IMG/VR virus record: IMGVR_UViG_3300032897_000008
Location: 1-49,429 of that record
DNA: 49,429 nucleotides
DNA from: a virus
Reading direction: 5' to 3' (one strand)
Shown in pieces: positions 1 to 11,471 of the stretch. The position numbers and the translations under genes are program-made. The notes beneath the pieces were generated by a model, which was not told where the DNA came from, ran no database searches, and was given only the letters and a program-made list of their open reading frames with translations. Positions within the stretch are counted from its first letter, which is position 1. Each line of letters begins with the position of its first letter.

Positions 1-127
1 ACATGCGCGTAACCTCGATTCGCTACCAGCCGATCGAGGGTGGGGGACAGGGCGGCTACTTCGCCCTTCATGTGACCCTTGGGGCCGGCGACGGCCCCGG
101 GGTCGTTTTCTCTCCCACCGCTCTCTC
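1..127. repeat. Left copy of 127-bp terminal direct repeat
   Basis: Bases 1-127 are identical to 49303-49429. An exact repeat of 127 bases at both contig ends is what an assembler leaves on a closed circular or circularly permuted genome, because 127 is a common k-mer length. The unique genome is therefore 49302 bp. A true short terminal repeat is possible but less likely. Confidence 0.95.
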
Positions 128-569
128 GACGAAAATCCATGAGGCCTTCGAGAGCCTCTCGCTGAAGTCTCCCGTCCGTGGCGTCCTCCTGGACTGTCGC
201 GAGGCCGTAGGCACGAACGAAGAGATGTCCTCCCTCATCGGGTCTCTCAAAGACTGGAAGTACATCGTGATCCTCTGGGTAGGGGAGACCACCCGCTACC
301 CGTGGTTCGAGGGCTGCTTCGTGACGGCCTTTGTGACCTCGCAACATTGGCCAAACTTCAGAGCCTCGGAGATCCGTTACATCCTTTCCTCCACCGAGGA
401 CTGGATCGAGCCTGATGTCTATGAGGTGAACTCCACGACTCCGTGCTTCATCGTCGCAGGAGATGCGAAGGGAAAGGACATCCTTTCCTTCGTGACCGAC
501 TGCAAGCGCCTGTGGGGGGTGATCTTCGAGTGTAGGGGCGTCGCGGCTATCGACTTTCCTCTTCTCTAA
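3..569 (+). CDS. Hypothetical protein, 188 aa
   Basis: A 188-aa soluble protein of unknown function. I recognise no family. It mixes beta-type hydrophobic stretches (around residues 85-95 and 145-175) with acidic helices, and has no signal peptide or membrane segment. The ATG at 3 lies one base after the stop of the 72-aa gene that ends at 49303 on the closed circle, so it belongs to the same plus-strand operon, and it is followed after 9 bases by the UDG-polymerase gene. The reverse-strand frame at 68-292 is a shadow. A role in replication or nucleotide metabolism is suggested only by position. Confidence 0.85.
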   Translation: MRVTSIRYQPIEGGGQGGYFALHVTLGAGDGPGVVFSPTALSTKIHEAFESLSLKSPVRGVLLDCREAVGTNEEMSSLIGSLKDWKYIVILWVGETTRYPWFEGCFVTAFVTSQHWPNFRASEIRYILSSTEDWIEPDVYEVNSTTPCFIVAGDAKGKDILSFVTDCKRLWGVIFECRGVAAIDFPLL

Positions 570-578
570 AAGAGACCG

Positions 579-2426
579 ATGAAGCTCTTCCGAATCACCC
601 GTACGAAGTCCAAGTGCTCGGTCTGTCCTCTGGATGGCTACTGCACGAAAGTGAGGGGGGAAAGTGTCACAGAGACGCCGAAGATCGCCTTCATCGGTGA
701 GGCACCGGGAGCGGAAGAGGACTCATCGGGTCATCCCTTCGTCGGCTCGGCGGGCAAGGAACTTGATCGAGTGCTCGCGAAAGCGGGGCTCCATCGCCAT
801 AACGCCTATCTTCTTAACGTCACGAATTGCCGACCGCCGGAGAATGATCTTCAGTCGCCTGAGGGCCAAGAAGCCGTCGTTGCTTGTCGTCCGGGCTTTG
901 AGGAGGAGCTTACGGCGCTCTGGAAACTCGGCGTCCATACGCTGGTTCCTCTCGGGGCGAACCCCCTCCGCGCTGTGGGCTTGGAAGGACCGATCCACAA
1001 AGTCCGTGGCTCTGTGTACGAAGTACAGGTGGCCGGCCTCAGCTTTTGGGCCGTCCCGACCTTCCACCCCTCCTACATCATAAGGGGCCAGTGGTCGGAA
1101 GAACCCACCATGGTCTCCGACGTAGCGAAGGCCGTAGACATCGCTCTGAAAGGGTACAGCCCGCCGAAGGAGAACTTCCTTCTCTTCCCAACGGTGAAAG
1201 ACATCGAGGTACGGGCAAAGGATCTCCTGAAGCGCAAGCCTCTTCTCGGCGTGGACATAGAGACCACGAGCCTCAAGCCCTGGGACGGGGAGATCTTCGT
1301 GGTGGCGCTGGCCGTGTCGGGCGAGGAGGCGTTTTCCATCCCCTTCTTCTCCCAAGGCTACAAGCCCTACTGGAAGAACGGAGACCTGCATGTCGTCCAA
1401 GACTGCCTGAGAGAGATCCTCGCGGCCTGCCCTACGATGTACCAGAACGCTCCGTTCGACGTGGGGTACCTCGAACATCACGGCTACCCGGTAGGTAGCA
1501 TCGCGCATGACGTTCTTCTCATCCACCACGCGATCCATCCTGAGCTTCCGCATCGTCTTGCGTACATCGTTTCGATTTACGGCGCCACCCCGTACTGGAA
1601 AGACGTCAAGTTTCCTGGGCAGAAGATGGGTGAGGTGGATGATGAGAAACTCAGGACGTACAACGCCAGAGATGCCGTGGTGCTCCATCAGGTGCTCCCG
1701 CCTCTCCTTGAGGATCTTAAGGACACGGGGACCGAGCACATCTACTACAACTACTCCTTAAGGCTCATCCGCCCCATCCTTTCCATCCAGAGGAACGGAA
1801 TGCTCTTGGACCGAAATCGACTCTCTAAATGGAAGAAGGAACTTGAACATGATCTCGCAGAGACAGAGCGAAAGCTACGCGACACCGCCGTACTTCCTGT
1901 GGGGTTCAACTTCCAGTCTCCCCATCATCTCTCATGGTGGTTCTACGGGGAAGCGCCGACAAGCCTCCCGAAGTGGAAGGCCGAGCTTGCAAGCTATGAG
2001 GAAGAAGGCACGCGAAAGAAGAAGGCTTCGGCCAGGTACAAGGATCTCGTCGATCGGGTGGCGATCTTTGAGAAGATCACACCTCTGGCCCGGTCTCGCT
2101 CCAAGACCAAGCGGACGAAGACTGGCTTCGCGAAGGACGAGAAGGCACTGCTTCTGGCAAAGCTTGCGGCGACTACTGAGATCGATCTCATCTCGCGTTT
2201 TCGCCGTCCGACGCCAGAACACCTCGCGCGGTTCGACGAGCTGACACATCTTCGCGATTGCCTCACTCTCTTTCAGAAACGGCAAAAGCTGGCCAAACTT
2301 CTTTCTACCTACACCGACTTCGAGACCGCACCCGACGGACGGGTTCACGCCGGGTTCAAGATCCACGGGACGGCCACGGGAAGGCTCTCTTCTGGAGAGG
2401 GCCAGGAAGAGAGTGAGAGCGTATGA
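579..2426 (+). CDS. Family 4 uracil-DNA glycosylase fused to N-terminal part of DNA polymerase I
   Basis: A 615-aa fusion. Residues ~10-190 are a family 4 (Fe-S) uracil-DNA glycosylase: C13-x2-C16 and C84-x18-C103 can bind the 4Fe-4S cluster, GEAPG (40-44) is the substrate motif and HPS (163-165) the second active-site motif. Residues ~215-390 are a DnaQ-like 3'-5' exonuclease with D226-x-E228 (ExoI), N290-x3-D294 (ExoII) and Y361-x3-D365 (ExoIII). The rest is the start of a family A polymerase, ending in TATGRLSS (motif before the palm), after which the frame runs off into about ten unrelated residues and stops. The missing palm/fingers continue in the 2926-3786 gene. The stop overlaps the ATG of an HNH gene (ATGA). 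The protein should excise uracil and, with its other half, copy phage DNA. Confidence 0.93.
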   Translation: MKLFRITRTKSKCSVCPLDGYCTKVRGESVTETPKIAFIGEAPGAEEDSSGHPFVGSAGKELDRVLAKAGLHRHNAYLLNVTNCRPPENDLQSPEGQEAVVACRPGFEEELTALWKLGVHTLVPLGANPLRAVGLEGPIHKVRGSVYEVQVAGLSFWAVPTFHPSYIIRGQWSEEPTMVSDVAKAVDIALKGYSPPKENFLLFPTVKDIEVRAKDLLKRKPLLGVDIETTSLKPWDGEIFVVALAVSGEEAFSIPFFSQGYKPYWKNGDLHVVQDCLREILAACPTMYQNAPFDVGYLEHHGYPVGSIAHDVLLIHHAIHPELPHRLAYIVSIYGATPYWKDVKFPGQKMGEVDDEKLRTYNARDAVVLHQVLPPLLEDLKDTGTEHIYYNYSLRLIRPILSIQRNGMLLDRNRLSKWKKELEHDLAETERKLRDTAVLPVGFNFQSPHHLSWWFYGEAPTSLPKWKAELASYEEEGTRKKKASARYKDLVDRVAIFEKITPLARSRSKTKRTKTGFAKDEKALLLAKLAATTEIDLISRFRRPTPEHLARFDELTHLRDCLTLFQKRQKLAKLLSTYTDFETAPDGRVHAGFKIHGTATGRLSSGEGQEESESV

Positions 2427-2914
2427 AACTGACAGTCATTTCGAGAAAGAACGAGTGCTACGAGGTTCTATTCGACGAAGGGGACGCTTACGAAATCCTT
2501 CAGCGAAAGTGGTACGTGTCAAATTGCAGGGGTCATTTCTACGCCAAAAGGTTCGAAGACGGGAAAGTCTTGTACATGCATCGTCTGATAGTAGGGGAAA
2601 CCCCAAGAGGCTTTGACGTTGACCACATCAACGGGAATGGGTTGGACAATCGAAGAAGCAACCTGAGAGTTGTTTCTCACAGCGAGAATCTTGCCAACAC
2701 AGGCCCTTCCAAAAAGAGGGCGACAAACGCAAGCCGATTCAAAGGCGTCTGGTTTGAACGCAGAACAGGGAAATGGTGCGCAAGCCTTACAGTGAAAGGC
2801 GTACGAAGAAACCTTGGTACCTTTCTATCTGAGGAGAACGCTGCAAGAGCATACAACAAAGCCGTAGAGGTCACCTTGGGGTCCGTAGGGTACCTGAACG
2901 GGGGTCTAACATAA
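2423..2914 (+). CDS. HNH homing endonuclease with AP2 domain, inserted in the DNA polymerase gene
   Basis: A 163-aa free-standing HNH endonuclease. The core is MHRLI then DVDHINGNGLDNRRSNL (about residues 52-85), typical of the HNH_3 group: the DH pair and the N-rich part coordinate the metal and the scissile phosphate. Residues ~100-150 (SRFKGVWFERRTGKW to AARAYNKAV) are an AP2-type DNA-binding domain, a common partner. It has its own ATG overlapping the upstream stop, and is clearly less GC-rich than its neighbours, a sign of recent arrival. It interrupts polymerase between two conserved motifs, as mobile endonucleases often do with genes for replication proteins. Confidence 0.93.
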   Translation: MKLTVISRKNECYEVLFDEGDAYEILQRKWYVSNCRGHFYAKRFEDGKVLYMHRLIVGETPRGFDVDHINGNGLDNRRSNLRVVSHSENLANTGPSKKRATNASRFKGVWFERRTGKWCASLTVKGVRRNLGTFLSEENAARAYNKAVEVTLGSVGYLNGGLT

Positions 2915-2925
2915 ACGCTCAAAAT

Positions 2926-3786
2926 TTGCCCGAGGATGCCCGAAAGGTCTTCGTCCCTGCCCCGGGAAATGCGTTCGTGTCGGGCGATTTCTCCAACCTT
3001 GAGCTTCGCGTCATGGCCTATGACTTCAAGGATGAAGTGCTTCAGAAGATGTTCGACGAAGGGAAGAACATTCACGACGAGAACACTAAAGCCATGTTCA
3101 AGATCACCCCTTCCCATCCCGGGTGGAAGCACATAAGGAAAGCCGCCAAGATCGCAGTGTTCGGTAGAAGCTTCGGAGGCGGGGTAAGAGGGATTTTCGA
3201 GCGGGTGAGTGCCAAGGTACCTGAGTTCAATTTCACGATGGCGATGTTTCGGGATGCTGACCGCCGTTACTTCGACGCCCACCCGGCCCTTGACAAAGGA
3301 TTCAAGGAAGCATCTTCCACAGCGCGACTCACTCGTGTCTGTACAACTGCGACGGGACGAAAGCGCTTCTTCCTCGGTGCTCCAGATGAGGTTGAGCGTG
3401 AAGGCATCAATACCCGTATTCAATCCGTCGCGGGGGACATCGAACACGAGTCCTTGATTGCTCTCTATGAGGAATGCGAGCGCCACCCGGGGTGGCTCCT
3501 CCTCTGGCCGATTCACGACTCGAACACGATCGAGTGTCCGATCTCCGACATCCCGCTCTGCGCCTCCACCATGAAGGCAATCATGGAGAAACCGCGCCAT
3601 CTCTGGGGAAAGACCGTGGTGTTCCCCGCCGATGTATCAGTGTCTACGACTTCCTGGGGAGAATTGAAAGCCTATGAAGAGTGGCTCAAGGACCAAAGCA
3701 CCTCCAGCGCACGCAAGCCCTCACTCCCACAACGGAAGCGAAAGCCTCACTCCCCCAAAGCCCGAGTACCTTCCCGTCGCGTATGA
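2926..3786 (+). CDS. C-terminal (palm/fingers) part of split family A DNA polymerase
   Basis: The 286-aa frame holds the polymerase active site: motif A VSGDFSNLELRV (D21, E26), motif B R71-x3-K75-x3-F79-x3-F83 and motif C PIHDSN (H197, D198). Homology to family A enzymes begins a few codons before the possible TTG start, with NAQNLP in the same frame at 2914-2931. There is no clear ribosome binding site at that TTG, so translation may restart after the HNH stop (2912-2914) or the protein may be joined by RNA splicing. E. coli Y766 corresponds to F83, and the E after the motif C Asp is a serine. The basic tail after about residue 255 overlaps the next gene by 113 bases. Confidence 0.88.
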   Translation: MPEDARKVFVPAPGNAFVSGDFSNLELRVMAYDFKDEVLQKMFDEGKNIHDENTKAMFKITPSHPGWKHIRKAAKIAVFGRSFGGGVRGIFERVSAKVPEFNFTMAMFRDADRRYFDAHPALDKGFKEASSTARLTRVCTTATGRKRFFLGAPDEVEREGINTRIQSVAGDIEHESLIALYEECERHPGWLLLWPIHDSNTIECPISDIPLCASTMKAIMEKPRHLWGKTVVFPADVSVSTTSWGELKAYEEWLKDQSTSSARKPSLPQRKRKPHSPKARVPSRRV

Positions 3787-5197
3787 TGAAGAGCGGGCAA
3801 AGAATCACTTCTGGAAGGCCGACCCTGGAGACGAGGTTCTCCCCAAGCGAAAAGGCTTCATCACTGACTGTGTGGCAAGACATCGGGGAAAGCAGGTCTC
3901 AACCCTCTACACCGTGTGGAGCACTCTCTTCATCCTCTCCACCGCCGTCAAGCGCGAGGCGTGGCTACGGTTCGGCGAGAACCACCTGTGGTCGAACTTC
4001 TACTGCATCCTTGTCGGCCCTGCCGGGATCGCGCACAAGGGAGAGGCCATCAACGATGCGGTCTCGATCCTCGAAGGTTTCCGTGACTACATCGAAAGCC
4101 CCGAGTTCGCCGTGATGAAGACCATCAACATCGTCGAGGACAAGGTCTCGCCCGAAGCGCTCCTCGAAGGCATCCACCCGAGAAACAAGCGCGTCCTCCT
4201 CCCCGGGATGTTCCGTGGCGCCTCGGGCTGTTACCTCAAGGACTCGAAGGGCAATCGCCTGAAGAATCCTGCAACGGGCCGTGACGCATGGTACTCGCTC
4301 ACCTCAGAGGCTGGGATCGTTGCGGGAGAGTTCGCCACCCTCGCAGGCCAGCAGCGCTACAACACCGGTCTCATCGATAACCTCCTTCGACTCTACGACT
4401 GCGACCGGCCATTCATCTGGCGCACCGTCAAGCGCGGGCGTCCCGTAGCCCTGAAGAACCTTCACACGACCCTCCTCGCCGGGACCACGATGACGGGGTT
4501 CCGCAGCTCGCTTTCCGACGCCGTACGGACCGACGGTTTCCTTTCCCGCTCCGCGATTGTCTACTGCCCGAAGACGCCCTTTCGCCGCTTCTCCCGCCCG
4601 CGCATCGTGGACGAAGCCCCGTCGAAAAAGGAACTCCAGCGACGGCTTGCCTGGATCACCGAGCACGCGGTAGGCGAGTTCGATCTCACCCCTGAGGCCG
4701 ACAAGTACTACGAGAAGTGGTACAACAAGTGGTGGGATGATCTGGAAGAGGACACGCAGTACCAGGGACTCAAGAGCCGCATCCACGTCCTCGTTCTCAA
4801 GATCGCGATGCTCCTTCGCATCCAGCGCTACGAGGTGGGGCCGAAACTTGTGGACAAGGATGACATCAAGGACGCGATTCATCTCATTCAGCGAACGTGG
4901 TTCGAGGCTCTCCCTGTCATGAAAGGCTTTGAGGCTGGGGATGAGAAGCCGTATCTTGGTCGTATGGAAGAGTACCTCCGCGAGCGTGGAGAGGTGACGA
5001 GGCAGAAGCTCCTTCGCCAGGGACACTTCACCACCCAGGAAGCGAAGGACGGGATCACGATGCTCGTGGACGAGGGAAAGGTCGAGATCCACCGGGGAGA
5101 GAAGATCTACCCCTATCCCTCATCCGATGGAAAGGAAATATATCGATGGACCGGAGAGAAGTGGCTGGGCTACCAAGACGTGGAGGCAGAGCAGTGA
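3674..5197 (+). CDS. DUF3987-type helicase-like replication protein
   Basis: A 507-aa protein whose layout matches the DUF3987 (YfjI-like) helicase-type family often found with primases: a P-loop-like GPAGIAHKGEA at ~115-125, a block SLTSEAGIVAGEFATLAG (~205-222), then a LLAGTTMTGF...GFLSRSAIVYCP block (~278-310), and a C-terminal winged-helix-like region (YLRERGEVTRQKLLRQGHFT). The P-loop ends in K-G instead of K-S/T. It follows DNA polymerase and overlaps its tail by 113 bases in another frame. There is no ATG, GTG or TTG in the next 40 codons, so 3674 is the only start that keeps the conserved part. It probably acts in DNA unwinding or initiation; no separate primase is recognisable. Confidence 0.8.
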   Translation: MKSGSRTKAPPAHASPHSHNGSESLTPPKPEYLPVAYDEERAKNHFWKADPGDEVLPKRKGFITDCVARHRGKQVSTLYTVWSTLFILSTAVKREAWLRFGENHLWSNFYCILVGPAGIAHKGEAINDAVSILEGFRDYIESPEFAVMKTINIVEDKVSPEALLEGIHPRNKRVLLPGMFRGASGCYLKDSKGNRLKNPATGRDAWYSLTSEAGIVAGEFATLAGQQRYNTGLIDNLLRLYDCDRPFIWRTVKRGRPVALKNLHTTLLAGTTMTGFRSSLSDAVRTDGFLSRSAIVYCPKTPFRRFSRPRIVDEAPSKKELQRRLAWITEHAVGEFDLTPEADKYYEKWYNKWWDDLEEDTQYQGLKSRIHVLVLKIAMLLRIQRYEVGPKLVDKDDIKDAIHLIQRTWFEALPVMKGFEAGDEKPYLGRMEEYLRERGEVTRQKLLRQGHFTTQEAKDGITMLVDEGKVEIHRGEKIYPYPSSDGKEIYRWTGEKWLGYQDVEAEQ

Positions 5198-5972: not shown

Positions 5973-6691
5973 TCTACTTAGGGGATTGCTTGGAGATCAT
6001 GAAAAGTATTCCTTCTGAATCTATTGATCTCATCCTTTGTGATCTCCCATACGGAATCACTTCATGCAAATGGGACAGCGTAATACCGATTGAACCGCTC
6101 TGGCGAGAATACATAAGAATCACAAAGCCTGTCTCCGCAGTCGTTCTTACGGCATCGCAGCCCTTTTCATCAATGCTCGTGATGAGCAAACCGGAACTGT
6201 TCAAACATGAATGGATCTGGATCAAAAACCGAGGAAGCAATTTTGCCAACACGGTTAGGGAACCTTTCAAAGAGCACGAGCACGTTCTTGTCTTTAGCAA
6301 AGGAAAGTGGAAGTACAACAAACAGATGCAAGAAAGAACGGGAGCAGGACTTGCGAGGGTAAACTATGAATTTGATTTCAAAAGCAAGTCAGAGAACTAC
6401 AAGGACTTTGAAGGACGCAGCGAAGTCAAATTACCTGCCCTCCGAGTTCCCTCTTCTTGGCAGAAGTTCAACACCGATACAAGTGGTCTGCATCCAACAA
6501 TCAAGCCGGTAGAGTTAATGAAATACATGATCCTGACCTACACAGATGAAGGCGACACGGTCTTAGACAATGCAATGGGATCAGGAACAACAGGAGTTGC
6601 TTGCACTCAGACGAAGCGGAAGTTCGTTGGCATAGAGAAAGAAAAGAAGTACTTCGATGTAGCCAAAGAACGGATTGCTACTTCCCCTTGA
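5969..6691 (+). CDS. DNA (adenine or N4-cytosine) methyltransferase, beta class
   Basis: A 240-aa amino-methyltransferase. The catalytic DLPYG motif lies near the N-terminus (after VIYLGDCLEIM...SIDLIL) and the SAM-binding NAMGSGTTGVAC near the C-terminus, the motif order of the beta class. It would transfer methyl from SAM to an exocyclic amino group in DNA, probably to protect phage DNA from host restriction; there is no partner endonuclease. The GTG start at 5969 overlaps the previous stop. The open frame upstream to 5627 is a shadow of the HTH gene. The gene is distinctly AT-richer than the genome and probably acquired. Its end overlaps the convergent late operon by 14 bp. Confidence 0.93.
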   Translation: MIYLGDCLEIMKSIPSESIDLILCDLPYGITSCKWDSVIPIEPLWREYIRITKPVSAVVLTASQPFSSMLVMSKPELFKHEWIWIKNRGSNFANTVREPFKEHEHVLVFSKGKWKYNKQMQERTGAGLARVNYEFDFKSKSENYKDFEGRSEVKLPALRVPSSWQKFNTDTSGLHPTIKPVELMKYMILTYTDEGDTVLDNAMGSGTTGVACTQTKRKFVGIEKEKKYFDVAKERIATSP

Positions 6692-9600
6692 GGTCTGGTC
6701 GGACGGAGAATCCGCCTGCGGTGAGAAACGCGGCGTAGGGCTGTCCTGCCTCGATCTGCTTGATGACCTCGACGGCCTGAGTGACCTGGGAGCCCATGGG
6801 AGCGAGTGCGGTCACTTCCTTCATCGCCGTCTGAAGCTCCCTCTTCCCCGGCTGGCTCGATGAGAGATTCACCATGGCTTGCCAAAGCGGCCCACCCCGC
6901 AGTGTCACCACCCGCCACGGCATGAGGTTTCCTCCCGAAAGTCCCGCCATGCGATTGGCTCCGTAGAACGCGGCGGTGTTCTTCGCGAAAGTAGCAAGTG
7001 CCGCCGTACGGTCGAAGAAACCTCCCGACCCGGCAAGCCTCGTGAGCGCCGCCATGTAGTGGGTGGGAACGACGGTGAGCTGACCGAACATCTTTCCGAG
7101 GATGCCGGTGTTAAGCGCCCTTCCCTGGTCCTCGGGGCGGAAGCCGAAGGCGATCTGGTCGGTCATGTTCTGCGCGTAGGCATGCTTCGCTCCCTCGTAG
7201 TCGCCTTGAGAGAGAAGCGTCTCCACTTGATCGAGGGCTCCCGGATCAAGCCGGAAGGCCTTGATCGCTTTCGCTTTCTGGGTCCAGTCCCCGACCTTCC
7301 CTCGATCGAACCACGCCTGGAGGTTTCGATCGAAAAGCCACGAGGCGGAGTCGTAGACCCCGGCCCGCCCGAGGATATGCCCGTTCTGGACGAAGTACCC
7401 CGAGGCTTTCCCCAGGCGGTTGAAGAGACTCGCGAAGGCGCTTCCGCTTCCCGCTGCCTCGTTGAACCCGTACATCGGGACCTTGCCCGTGAACACGCCC
7501 TTCTGGAAGAGATCCTTGAGATGGTCCAGCCCTCCATCGGAAGCCGCCTTGAACCCCCGGTTCATCGCTTCGGTCCCGAGGAAGCCCGACCCGAGGAGGT
7601 AGTTGTGTTCAAGAATGGTGAGCGCACTGGAGGGTCGGAATCCGTACGCACCCATTCCCGCCGCCGTCTGGAGGTAGGAGAAGATGTTTGCTTGGGGTCC
7701 CGGTCCGTCCTTTCCCAGCGCTTTCAAGACCTCCAAGGCTTCACTGTGAGTCCCGTTGAGTGCCTCGTCGATGTAGTGCTTCCCGAGGAGTTGAACGTGC
7801 TTCGGGACATCAGGCTGGGAAAGGCGCTCTGCGAAATCCTTGAAGTTCTCTACCGCGTACGCCCAGCGGTTTGCCATCTGCGAGTACCCGATGAACTTCG
7901 AGATCGCGTTCTGGTCTTTAAGAATCCCGTCCACGTCAGCCACGCGCTCGTACTGAGACGCATACCCGAGGTCCTTCGGAATCCTCCCTCCATAGACCCG
8001 GTTGATGAGCTGTCGCATTCCGTCGGGACCCGAAAGTTCCATGTCTTGGTAGGCTTTGGGGTTCGCCTCTTTCCAATCGTGGACTTTCTTCGCGTAGTCC
8101 ACAAGCATGATATCGGGGTCCTGACCGGTCCGTGTGTAGGAGGCGTTGTAGAGCTGCCGAAGCCTTGAGGCTGCATCCTGGATTTGTGCCCGCTTCGGCG
8201 AGCCCTCGGTGTAGCCCAAGTCCTCAAGCGTCCGCTGTCGGTCCTCTTCCCCGAGGGACTGCATCACCTTGTCCACGGCCATCCAGTCTTTGTCTGAGAG
8301 GTTGTAGAGTCGCTCGATGGAAAAGGCCTTTTGAGCGTCCACGTAGGTCTGGTTGCTCGCGGCCTTGATCCCCTCACCGACTTTCGAGAACGTCCTCCCC
8401 AAGCCCTTGATCCCGTACTCCACCTCAGCTCGGGCGATCGAGGTTCTTGCCGGTGCCATCCAATCAGAGATCACCGACCTGATATGAGAGATCTCTTGGC
8501 CGAGCTTTGACCGACCCGCGTACTTCCCAATTGGGATCACATCCGAGGCGAGCTTCGGTGAGTCGGCGCTGTTCTTAAGCGTCACCCCCGCGTCGAACTG
8601 CCCACCGGGTGCCCACCTCAGGTCGGGGGTCTTCGCAAGGATCTTCCCTACCTCATCCATGGAGTGAACGGTGTAGGTTCCCGTCGCATCCGATAGGACA
8701 TACCCGCGCTTGGGGTCGTAGGTGAAGGCAAAGCCTCTCTCGTTTGCGATCCGTGAGGCGTTGTCGTATTCCTTGTACTTGCCGTTGAGGTACTCGTGGG
8801 CTTCCGCCGAGGAGGCAAACCGTTCCCGTATTCCCCACGCAGGAATCTCCACGGTGTACGCCCCGTCGTGATCGGAAGTGAGCCTGCCATCTCCCGTGGA
8901 AGCAACCGTTTTCCTTCCTTCCTCCGCCGCCACGTCCATGAACTGCGAGGCGAACTTGTAGACATCCCGAAGGCTCCCGCTCACCCCATCGCCCGAGTAC
9001 TGAAAGCGCGAACCCTCGGGAAGGATCTCGATGTTTCGAGGCCCAAAGCGACCGTCGAGAAGCTTCGGCCGGTACTTGGCTTCCCACATCGCCTGGGCCG
9101 CGTTGGCCCCAGAGCCCAGCACCTTCCCGTCCGTGTCGAGGATCGAGTACTGTCCGCCTTCCTGGCGGAGCGACATTCCTTCGCTCTCAAGGCTTGCGCG
9201 AAGATGGGAGGGCGTCGTCGAGCGAAGCAGAAATGCATCGGTCACCTCATCGAGTGATCCCTGAAACGGCGGGTAGCCTTTCATCGAAAGCGCGTAGTTG
9301 TCGGTGCCGAACTTGGCGATGTTTCCGGTTCCTTCCCGCGCCACCGCGTTCATGAACCACTCGGCTCGCTCCTGAGGCCCCAAGCCCTCCGGTGCCCGGT
9401 ACATCGTCGGCCGCTCTGGAGTCATGGCCGATGCCCCGCCAGCGGTGGGAAGCTCTTCTGGAGCGGTGTATTCCCTCGACCACTTGTTCACGAACTCGGT
9501 GACGTGTTTGATTTGCTCCCTCGGGTAGAGTGCCGTCACCGACCCGTCAGCGTGCTCGATGGCGTCGTAGCCTCCGTCCCGAAGCTTCCAGAAGGCGAGG

Positions 9601-11471
9601 TCCTCGCGCGTCCCCTCCGCGCCCTTCTTGAGCGCCTGGTCGGCCCACGAGAGCGAGGCCTGCCACACCCCGTCGGGTGCGGCCTTCCCGTAGACGATCG
9701 CCCCGTTGTAGTCCCCCGAGGTGACGGTCTGAAGGTTCGTCGGACGGTCGGTGGGAAAGAGCGCTCCCTGCTTCTCGATGTTGGAAAGGCCTTCTCTCGG
9801 AACGTCCACGGAGATCCGAGCGACTTTCATCCCGTTAGCCTGAAGCTGCCCCACCTCGCCGTAGGAGAGCATCGGGCCTTCGGAAAGACCCTTCGCCGCG
9901 CCCTCGGGCCGAAGCCTCTCCATGTTTCCTTCTATGATCGTGAGGGAGTCCCGTATCGCCCGGTCATGAGGGAAAGCATCCTGGAGGGCGTTCAGATGCA
10001 TGTCGTGGGATTGGACTTGGCGAAGGTCCTCCTTGCCGCCTTTCTCTTCCCACGCGGCCTGCCACTTGGCTCCCTGCGCCCGCTCCTGTTCGATGGCATC
10101 CGCCCACTGTCCGTGCGATACCATCTCGGCCTCAGGAAGGGTGAGATGCTCACCAAGAAGCTCTCCACCCCGTCCGAGACTCGTCCGCATCCGCCACGTG
10201 TTAGGCCCGTCGGATACCATCGAAACGCCGAGAGGCCTCTGGCTGTCGGAAAGAATGAAGGTATTCGCGACCTTCATCGAGGCCACCGGGTTGTCCATGA
10301 GGGCCATGGGATTCTCGCGCGAGTAGTCCAGTGCCTCCGAGTAGTTCTGAGCCCAATCCTTTGCCGTTGCCCCGAGCTGGCTCCGTGCGGCGGGGTCCAC
10401 GTTCCCCTTGAAAAACTGGTCCTGGAGCCTCGCGGCCTCAGGAGTGTACTCCCCCCCTGCGGTCTTCTCGAACATCTCCGCCTTTGGAAGCGCTGCTCCC
10501 CCTTTTCCCAAAACCGAGCTTTTGAAGGTTCGAAGGATTCGTCCTACTCCTTCGGCCGCTCCCTGTCCCAGCATCCCGAAGGCCGCATCCTGCGCAGCCC
10601 ACTGGCCCCAAAGAAGCCCGATGCTCTTCACCGTCTCCACGATCCCGTGGGAGGTATCCGTTGCCCCCTCGATTGGGGCCACCCCGGGTCGGGCCGCATT
10701 CACCGCTTCTGCCGCCTCGCCCCGGATCACCCCGAGGGTGCCGGTCACCGCCGCGCGTGCTCCCACCTTCGCAAGAGCAGAGGCGCCTTCGGCCACGGGA
10801 GCCGCCTCTCCTACGCCCTTCATCGCAAGGAGGTCCGTCCCGTATCCCAGCACCGACCCAAGGACCTGTGTGGGTGTCTGCCCTCCGATGAGAGGAATCC
10901 CTGTGGTGATAGGTCCAATCTTGACCGTTGAGGGAAGCGCTGTCTCGTACTTCCTCTGAAGGTATGCGGCGAGCTTCACTCCATCCTTGTCCCCCGCGAT
11001 GGCCCGGGCCATGAGTTCGTCAGGGGTTGCGTTCTGAAGATCCGTCCGGGTCTCCGCGCCTCCAGAGAAGAACTTCCCCACGTCCGTCACCGCACCTGAA
11101 AGCGCCCGCCCCGCGTTCACCACTCCACGCGTGAGGAGTCCCGTCGAGCCCATCTGCGTGTCCATGTCGTAGAGAAACCGAAGGGTCTTCCCCTGTCCTG
11201 TGGGGCTCTCAAGAACCTGTCGGAGGTTCTCGTAGCGGGTGTCGGCGAAGGCGGGCGGATAGAGGTCCTTCACGCGCTTCAGCGCTGCGATCTTCATGTC
11301 ATCCGGGGCCTGTTGCCACGCAGGGCTTGATGCCGCCTTGGAGGCAAAGAGTTGCATCCGCGCCCGCTGCTGGTCCTCGTAGGAGAGGTCCCGAAACTTC
11401 GGGTCCATCATCTGGACGGCGAACGGATTCGGTGCCTGCCGTCCCGGCTGCTGCGCGTAGGGGTCGGACAT
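6678..11471 (-). CDS. Very large internal virion (ejection) protein, 1597 aa
   Basis: The largest gene and the last of the late operon. The product is 1597 aa, with Ala/Gly-rich hydrophobic stretches (~160-290: repeated VGARAAVTGTLG-like segments, and ~1330-1520) and long amphipathic helices between them. It matches no enzyme I can name; the composition is like the large polyvalent/internal core proteins of podoviruses, which are ejected with the DNA and cross the envelope. It stands where T7 places gp16, after two smaller proteins in gp14- and gp15-like positions, but I see no transglycosylase motif. The 3' end overlaps the DNA methyltransferase by 14 bp. Confidence 0.85.
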   Translation of the reverse strand: MSDPYAQQPGRQAPNPFAVQMMDPKFRDLSYEDQQRARMQLFASKAASSPAWQQAPDDMKIAALKRVKDLYPPAFADTRYENLRQVLESPTGQGKTLRFLYDMDTQMGSTGLLTRGVVNAGRALSGAVTDVGKFFSGGAETRTDLQNATPDELMARAIAGDKDGVKLAAYLQRKYETALPSTVKIGPITTGIPLIGGQTPTQVLGSVLGYGTDLLAMKGVGEAAPVAEGASALAKVGARAAVTGTLGVIRGEAAEAVNAARPGVAPIEGATDTSHGIVETVKSIGLLWGQWAAQDAAFGMLGQGAAEGVGRILRTFKSSVLGKGGAALPKAEMFEKTAGGEYTPEAARLQDQFFKGNVDPAARSQLGATAKDWAQNYSEALDYSRENPMALMDNPVASMKVANTFILSDSQRPLGVSMVSDGPNTWRMRTSLGRGGELLGEHLTLPEAEMVSHGQWADAIEQERAQGAKWQAAWEEKGGKEDLRQVQSHDMHLNALQDAFPHDRAIRDSLTIIEGNMERLRPEGAAKGLSEGPMLSYGEVGQLQANGMKVARISVDVPREGLSNIEKQGALFPTDRPTNLQTVTSGDYNGAIVYGKAAPDGVWQASLSWADQALKKGAEGTREDLAFWKLRDGGYDAIEHADGSVTALYPREQIKHVTEFVNKWSREYTAPEELPTAGGASAMTPERPTMYRAPEGLGPQERAEWFMNAVAREGTGNIAKFGTDNYALSMKGYPPFQGSLDEVTDAFLLRSTTPSHLRASLESEGMSLRQEGGQYSILDTDGKVLGSGANAAQAMWEAKYRPKLLDGRFGPRNIEILPEGSRFQYSGDGVSGSLRDVYKFASQFMDVAAEEGRKTVASTGDGRLTSDHDGAYTVEIPAWGIRERFASSAEAHEYLNGKYKEYDNASRIANERGFAFTYDPKRGYVLSDATGTYTVHSMDEVGKILAKTPDLRWAPGGQFDAGVTLKNSADSPKLASDVIPIGKYAGRSKLGQEISHIRSVISDWMAPARTSIARAEVEYGIKGLGRTFSKVGEGIKAASNQTYVDAQKAFSIERLYNLSDKDWMAVDKVMQSLGEEDRQRTLEDLGYTEGSPKRAQIQDAASRLRQLYNASYTRTGQDPDIMLVDYAKKVHDWKEANPKAYQDMELSGPDGMRQLINRVYGGRIPKDLGYASQYERVADVDGILKDQNAISKFIGYSQMANRWAYAVENFKDFAERLSQPDVPKHVQLLGKHYIDEALNGTHSEALEVLKALGKDGPGPQANIFSYLQTAAGMGAYGFRPSSALTILEHNYLLGSGFLGTEAMNRGFKAASDGGLDHLKDLFQKGVFTGKVPMYGFNEAAGSGSAFASLFNRLGKASGYFVQNGHILGRAGVYDSASWLFDRNLQAWFDRGKVGDWTQKAKAIKAFRLDPGALDQVETLLSQGDYEGAKHAYAQNMTDQIAFGFRPEDQGRALNTGILGKMFGQLTVVPTHYMAALTRLAGSGGFFDRTAALATFAKNTAAFYGANRMAGLSGGNLMPWRVVTLRGGPLWQAMVNLSSSQPGKRELQTAMKEVTALAPMGSQVTQAVEVIKQIEAGQPYAAFLTAGGFSVRPDLKGK

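Follow-up and report, generated by a model that had tools for sequence, protein, structure and literature searches.

We analysed a 49,429-nt stretch of soil-virus DNA (IMG/VR virus record IMGVR_UViG_3300032897_000008, positions 1 to 49,429; hereafter the window), which carries at positions 579-3786 a family A DNA polymerase locus with a uracil-DNA glycosylase (UDG) domain. Open reading frame (ORF) analysis of this region revealed three ORFs in three frames and no single gene. The polymerase is divided between the first ORF (part 1) and the third (part 2), and an HNH endonuclease gene lies between them. The same break point was found in five other contigs, and its contents differed in all six. 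The locus probably specifies a two-chain UDG-polymerase whose genes are translationally coupled and whose chains assemble without splicing, and the break, likely made by an HNH element, probably now serves as an exchangeable gene slot.

A UDG-polymerase locus of three genes

All three genes are on the plus strand. Part 1 (579..2426; 615 aa), defined by its ORF, a PF03167 match and an AlphaFold2 (AF2) model, comprises a family 4 UDG, a 3′-5′ exonuclease and, from a family A polymerase, the thumb and the first segment of the palm; it ends in TGRLSSGEGQEESESV, followed by the stop codon. The gene in the slot (2423..2914) was recognised from its ORF and from Pfam and PHROG matches as an HNH_3 endonuclease gene with a weak AP2 match, and its ATG overlaps the part 1 stop (ATGA). 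Part 2 (2911..3786) encodes the fingers and catalytic palm, with NAQN, motif A (GDFSNLELR) and motif C (HDS). The HNH stop TAA (2912-2914) overlaps the proposed part 2 start, ATA (2911..2913).

Family 4 UDGs are defined by four Fe-S cysteines and the motifs GE[AG]PG and HP[SA]. The UDG domain of part 1 (579..1154; residues 1-192) has cysteines at residues 13, 16, 84 and 103, GEAPG and FHPS. PF03167 matched residues 32-174 with 85.5 bits (cut-off 24.3; E 4.6e-24), and TIGR00758 gave 106.5 bits, under its curated cut-off of 125.3. The AF2 model of part 1 had a mean predicted local distance difference test score (pLDDT) of 84.8, and its residues 4-194 matched the UDG structure 1ui0 (Z 23.8, root-mean-square deviation 2.5, 180 residues aligned). 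By profile, motifs and modelled fold the domain belongs to family 4, and uracil excision is predicted. The ordinary assumption for such a domain is a role such as uracil removal ahead of synthesis. Equivalents of the cysteines and motifs are kept in all six loci that share the break, with FHPA in one (L005). Between the window and another of these loci, L003, identity was 60-64% at window nt 778-978 (part 1 columns 200-400) and 75-96% in the other regions of part 1; judged from this pattern, the UDG domain is mosaic.

The exonuclease domain (1167..1778; residues ~197-400, limits approximate) follows directly and has DIET, QNAPFD and YNARDA. In the model, residues 197-606 matched residues 325-672 of the Klenow structure 1kln (Z 21.9). 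Homology in part 1 ends with the codons of TGRLSSGEG (2376..2402), where the break point corresponds to Klenow 674|675; after TGRLSSGE there is a short tail and then the stop. Part 2 gave a DNA_pol_A match of 103.3 bits (E 1.8e-29) and contains the family A motifs GDFSNLELR, RKAAKIAVFG and HDS. Its AF2 model (pLDDT 87.6) matched Klenow 674-928 with Z 23.3, so the two halves have complementary folds. Taken together, parts 1 and 2 have the motifs and the modelled fold of a family A polymerase; what departs from the family is the usual single continuous chain.

These results bear on a first-pass annotation of this DNA, made from its letters alone, which had read 579-3786 as one UDG-polymerase chain. 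Its UDG, with four cysteines, GEAPG and HPS, was borne out by the PF03167 profile and by motif reading, as was the proofreading exonuclease fused directly to it in one ORF (579-2426). Joining of the UDG to a family A polymerase holds for the thumb and first palm segment in part 1; the catalytic part is a separate gene. Both catalytic aspartates (motifs A and C) sit in part 2 alone, and the direct joining had overlooked the endonuclease gene in the middle. Thus, the idea that uracil removal and polymerisation are coupled within one chain was not supported. The profile searches that the annotation had proposed found PF03167 in part 1 and DNA_pol_A in part 2, and the catalytic motifs, whose loss it had named as a refutation, are kept. 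Searches of the window for dUTPase and dCMP deaminase families were negative, a result neutral on its suggestions of cytosine deamination and of protection against uracil-related defence.

The start of part 2 in the window is probably the ATA at 2911. A Shine-Dalgarno (SD)-like stretch, GGGGGT (2900..2905), lies 5 nt before it on the plus strand, with a duplex energy of -9.3 kcal/mol (1.7% of positions as low). The sole canonical start in window part 2 is TTG 2926; none precedes the conserved NAQN. Because TTG 2926 pairs at +1.9 kcal/mol and drops NAQN, ATA 2911 is the likelier start, and TTG 2926, which has no SD, is disfavoured. SD-like stretches precede part 2 in five of the six loci. Pairing energies were -9.7 kcal/mol in L002 (0.8% of positions in the same genes as low; its alternative GTG start gave -3.0), -6.6 in L003 (5.7%), -7.7 in L004 (2.4%) and -6.3 in L010 (3.3%).

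A common break point with changing contents

The five relatives (L002, L003, L004, L005 and L010, all from IMG/VR) showed 66-93% identity to the window in part 1, and the break was at the same codon in all six clade members. Since five further contigs show the same two polymerase pieces and the same break point, the split is not a chance artefact. The slot of the window gave an HNH_3 match of 44.1 bits (cut-off 24.8; E 1.6e-11) and a phrog_99 match (E 1.7e-36), and the AP2 match reached 22.0 bits (E 2e-4), under its cut-off of 33.3. By the HNH_3 motif the insert is a putative HNH homing endonuclease gene, predicted to cut the uninterrupted allele and so to spread. L002 has a different HNH_3 gene (E 5.6e-14), L003 a 111-aa ORF without a family match, L004 1.7 kb with several ORFs, and L005 a methyltransferase-like gene (phrog_24333, E 8.7e-49). 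The slot of L010 is empty: the part 1 TAA is followed by one base and then by ATG AAC GCA CAA AAC. The distance from stop to start between the halves ranged from 1 to 1688 bases. One small ORF of the L004 insert is related to an ORF elsewhere in L010 (55% over 47 aa); from this likeness, cargo may move between places.

Intact relatives (L020, L021 and L024, all three aligned) read P-N-x-Q-N at the break. In the window, L002, L003, L004, L005 and L010 the residue before N-x-Q-N is I, I, V, L, M and M, respectively, encoded at the P674 position by ATA, ATA, GTG, TTG, ATG and ATG. Wherever the slot is filled (five loci), the stop codon of the insert shares bases with this codon (ATAA, ATAA, GTGA, TTGA and ATGA). 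The break lies between Klenow P674 and N675 by an alignment counted by hand, and the models agree (325-672 / 674-928). Introns of SPO1, SP82, Bastille and Pf-WMP3, of the I-HmuI type with an HNH endonuclease, are inserted at the same polymerase site, 674 (PMC3428280). The intron of the SPO1-like phage SP8 joins there as well; its exon 2 starts AACGCTCAA, and by reading the same nine bases open window part 2. In a separate observation, the UDG-polymerase of an intact outgroup relative, L022, has an in-frame intein (L022:5436-5903; PF14890, 38.4 bits, cut-off 35.8) that separates GRL from SS and so lies a few residues before the break site.

This identity of site, and the HNH genes typical of such introns, would fit an SPO1-like self-splicing group I (or group II) intron with an HNH gene, a single chain being made from spliced RNA. 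However, Bastillevirinae introns contain 350 ± 108 non-gene-coding bases (PMC11878797), and the window insert has almost no non-coding room, overlapping both part 1 and part 2. Unlike the I-HmuI-type arrangement, part 1 has its own stop codon. Rfam searches by E-value detected no intron in window 2330-3000 (E ≤ 10) or in L002-L005 (E ≤ 1), and the SP8 control, run in this mode, yielded Intron_gpI (E 1.2e-4). Only these searches count, because the Rfam gathering threshold misses even the SP8 intron. In L010 the gap is a single base, which rules out an intron for the whole clade. A group I intron was rejected on these grounds (no catalytic core match, no non-coding room and the empty state in L010), and we regard joining at the RNA level as extremely improbable.

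Joining of the halves as protein or in translation, by frameshift, gap bypassing or split-intein trans-splicing, would account for the lack of a canonical start before NAQN in the window and would recall the intein of L022. However, neither half nor the HNH ORF contains an intein domain, the window halves are in different frames, and the distance between stop and start varies across the six as given above. Moreover, L003, L004, L005 and L010 have GTG, TTG or ATG exactly at the site. We therefore find such joining very unlikely. An intein in the window itself was rejected, the frames being different and the HNH ORF having no Hint or splicing domain.

Both halves are under purifying selection. 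For the window and L003, the only pair with synonymous divergence (dS) well below 1.5 in both halves, the ratio of nonsynonymous to synonymous divergence (dN/dS) was about 0.07-0.08 (0.079 in part 1 and 0.072 in part 2). The break is within the palm, a functionally critical stretch, as would be expected if the polymerase were dead, or only the UDG-exonuclease half functional, with part 2 a decaying remnant. The dN/dS values argue against this, as do the retention of motifs A and C and of N675/Q677 in all six members, the lack of a frameshift in any part 2, and the modelling of part 2 as a complete Klenow C-terminal segment. Decay is thus a highly unlikely explanation.

A UDG-exonuclease tree was built from 71 of 75 cluster representatives (described below); the other four, in which no single ORF matched both UDG and exonuclease, were excluded. 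The six members formed one clade with support 100/100, placed among intact relatives. L010, with the empty slot, was sister to L004, with 1.7 kb; therefore the slot changes while the break persists. Just past the break (part 2 columns 0-400), identity was 0.77-0.81 between L003 and L005 and 0.63-0.76 between the window and L005, a likeness of L003 and L005 that points to recombination near the slot. With an inherited split and complementary, constrained halves, the polymerase is by sequence and model a gene-in-pieces enzyme, for which assembly and activity are predicted.

The two chains could also have an origin in which no homing endonuclease took part, such as a stop combined with a new start, HNH genes landing later in the existing gap. 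The bare break of L010 and the presence of a recognised HNH gene in only two of the six members fit this origin, and a review of T4-related phages voices the same doubt about gp43 of phage 25 (PMC2988022). Against it, the break is exactly at the intron site of SPO1, SP82, Bastille and Pf-WMP3, and two different HNH genes occupy it. We regard an origin without homing as unlikely, if a serious possibility. Because the break lies exactly at the SPO1-type intron site, an HNH element is the most likely origin.

In the two-chain arrangement that we favour, chain 1 would run from the UDG through the proofreading exonuclease and the thumb into the first palm segment, as far as the residue preceding Klenow P674, and chain 2 would supply the remaining palm and the fingers from N675 on. 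Neighbouring genes would be translated in a coupled manner, each stop overlapping or abutting the next start, with the SD-like stretch before part 2. Both chains would assemble unspliced into one family A polymerase bearing a UDG. The break would have been inherited by the clade after a homing HNH element had most likely made it, and the slot contents may be replaced or lost without restoration of a single gene.

Several points weigh against this scheme. Start codons are rarely ATA, and L005 has a weak SD (-2.8 kcal/mol, 42% of positions as low). The pairing energies were computed with an assumed anti-SD sequence, which may differ from that of the host. dS was saturated in 12 of 15 pairs for part 1 and in 13 of 15 for part 2. 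Only six clade members were found, and further viral scans added none. As to an HNH-first origin, no endonuclease was recognised in the slots of L003, L004 and L005, and L010 has no insert. In a separate search, a scan of genome contigs with the part 1 alignment yielded no host or prophage copies.

Fused and broken UDG-polymerases in other phages

Fusion of UDG and polymerase is already known and common in phages; the novelty is the break. PHROG 17 spans the fusion, phage PaBG has a DNA polymerase I with a UDG domain (PMC7412058), and PDB entry 9qhs, a 1142-aa 'Putative DNA-directed DNA polymerase I', has a UDG match. The same UDG-exonuclease-polymerase order is present in the named phages SPO1/SP8, PaBG, vir526 and Microcystis phage Mel-JY34, whose tblastn matches were 21-36% identical across most of part 1. 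The polymerases of vir526 and Mel-JY34 are single ORFs and a group I intron divides that of SP8, whereas the focal clade has two genes. We grouped the window and 108 loci, including the best 80 of 310 confirmed loci of one scan, into 75 clusters at 95% nucleotide identity, leaving out L001 (a piece of the window), L007 (SP8) and L029 (MEP401). UDG, exonuclease and catalytic polymerase part were in one ORF in 52 of the 75. The remaining clusters were one single-ORF polymerase without a UDG match, 16 that were split and 6 that were incomplete.

Two further split clades were resolved, each as one clade of the UDG-exonuclease tree. In the first (L067 and L076) the polymerase is split after NAQTMPRE and an acidic tail and before motif A, with different small ORFs between the pieces (L067:3935-7083; L076:401-3170). 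In the second (L014, L093, L094 and L100), effectively two lineages because three of its four clusters are near-identical, the split is inside the exonuclease domain. L014 has an overlapping stop and start with no insert, and the other three have a further ORF between; in L094, the one scanned, this ORF (L094:5040-5357) matched the KTSC domain PF13619 (E 3.7e-7). The other four of the 16 split clusters are L057, L091, L096 and L107, of which L057 may be a sequencing frameshift. L096 has a subtilase-family ORF (L096:5769-7367; PF00082, E 5.6e-43) between its polymerase pieces, either a real insertion or a chimeric contig.

Family A polymerases encoded by two ORFs that flank a small unknown one have also been described in the OM43 phages MEP401 and MEP402, the split being present in most group I genomes (PMC10580990). 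The MEP401 break is ~20 residues past the focal site, just before motif A. The available portion of that description mentions no UDG domain and no exchanged or empty contents, and its authors consider an intron (PMC10580990). Since the MEP401 split, the SPO1-type introns, the L022 intein and the slot HNH genes are all near one site, this short stretch has been hit by introns, by an intein and by HNH genes alike.

A homing endonuclease likewise splits or adjoins the coding regions of nrdA in phage Aeh1 (split by mobE), gp43A/43B in Aeromonas phages 25 and 44RR, and topoisomerase genes 60/39 in T4 (PMC2988022). The separate chains of nrdA and gp43 come together again as active enzymes, and gp43A and gp43B of phage 25 co-purify (PMC2988022); by analogy, the chains of the focal enzyme may assemble in the same way. 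These precedents are a ribonucleotide reductase, a family B polymerase and a topoisomerase, whereas the focal enzyme is a UDG-polymerase of family A whose slot differs in content among all six members. Our search of the open-access literature turned up no report of a UDG-polymerase in pieces, nor of cargo that changes within a break in a polymerase gene. As far as this search goes, a family A UDG-polymerase that is split throughout a clade, with a slot whose contents are exchanged or even absent, is new among genes-in-pieces enzymes.

We tentatively suggest, at somewhat less than even confidence, that breakage of the polymerase gene is recurrent and heritable in UDG-polymerase phages, having occurred in at least three clades at three places (palm 674|675, between NxQN and motif A, and inside the exonuclease). 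Each break would outlive its maker and become a coupled slot for changing cargo tied to polymerase expression. With HNH cargo, an AUA start and a strong Shine-Dalgarno sequence would serve the catalytic half.

Neighbouring genes and implications of the split

The gene preceding the polymerase (3..569, plus strand) had no Pfam, PHROG or NCBIfam match; very tentatively, it may encode a degenerate QueE-like protein. Judged by reading, similar ORFs occupy the equivalent place in L002-L004, L020 and L021, and L005 has there, directly before the polymerase, an ORF (L005:5477-5998) that reads as methyltransferase-like. On the 3′ side of the polymerase is a DUF3987/primase-like gene (3674..5197, plus strand; PF13148, 46.5 bits; phrog_14296), present also in the relatives read. 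Just past the replication genes is an N6_N4 DNA methyltransferase gene (5987-6688; PF01555, 107.5 bits). A 1597-aa ORF on the minus strand (6678-11471) had no PHROG match.

ORF pairs of this kind resemble an intron-bearing or broken gene and are probably neither, which is a warning for annotation. The natural 674|675 break suggests a place for splitting family A polymerases in engineering. Homing elements are usually viewed as spliced out neutrally or lost cleanly. In the focal clade the cut in the polymerase gene persists even where the insert has been replaced or lost. This raises the questions of how a two-chain palm assembles, whether the split acts as a ratchet, and how phages gain cargo inside an essential gene.

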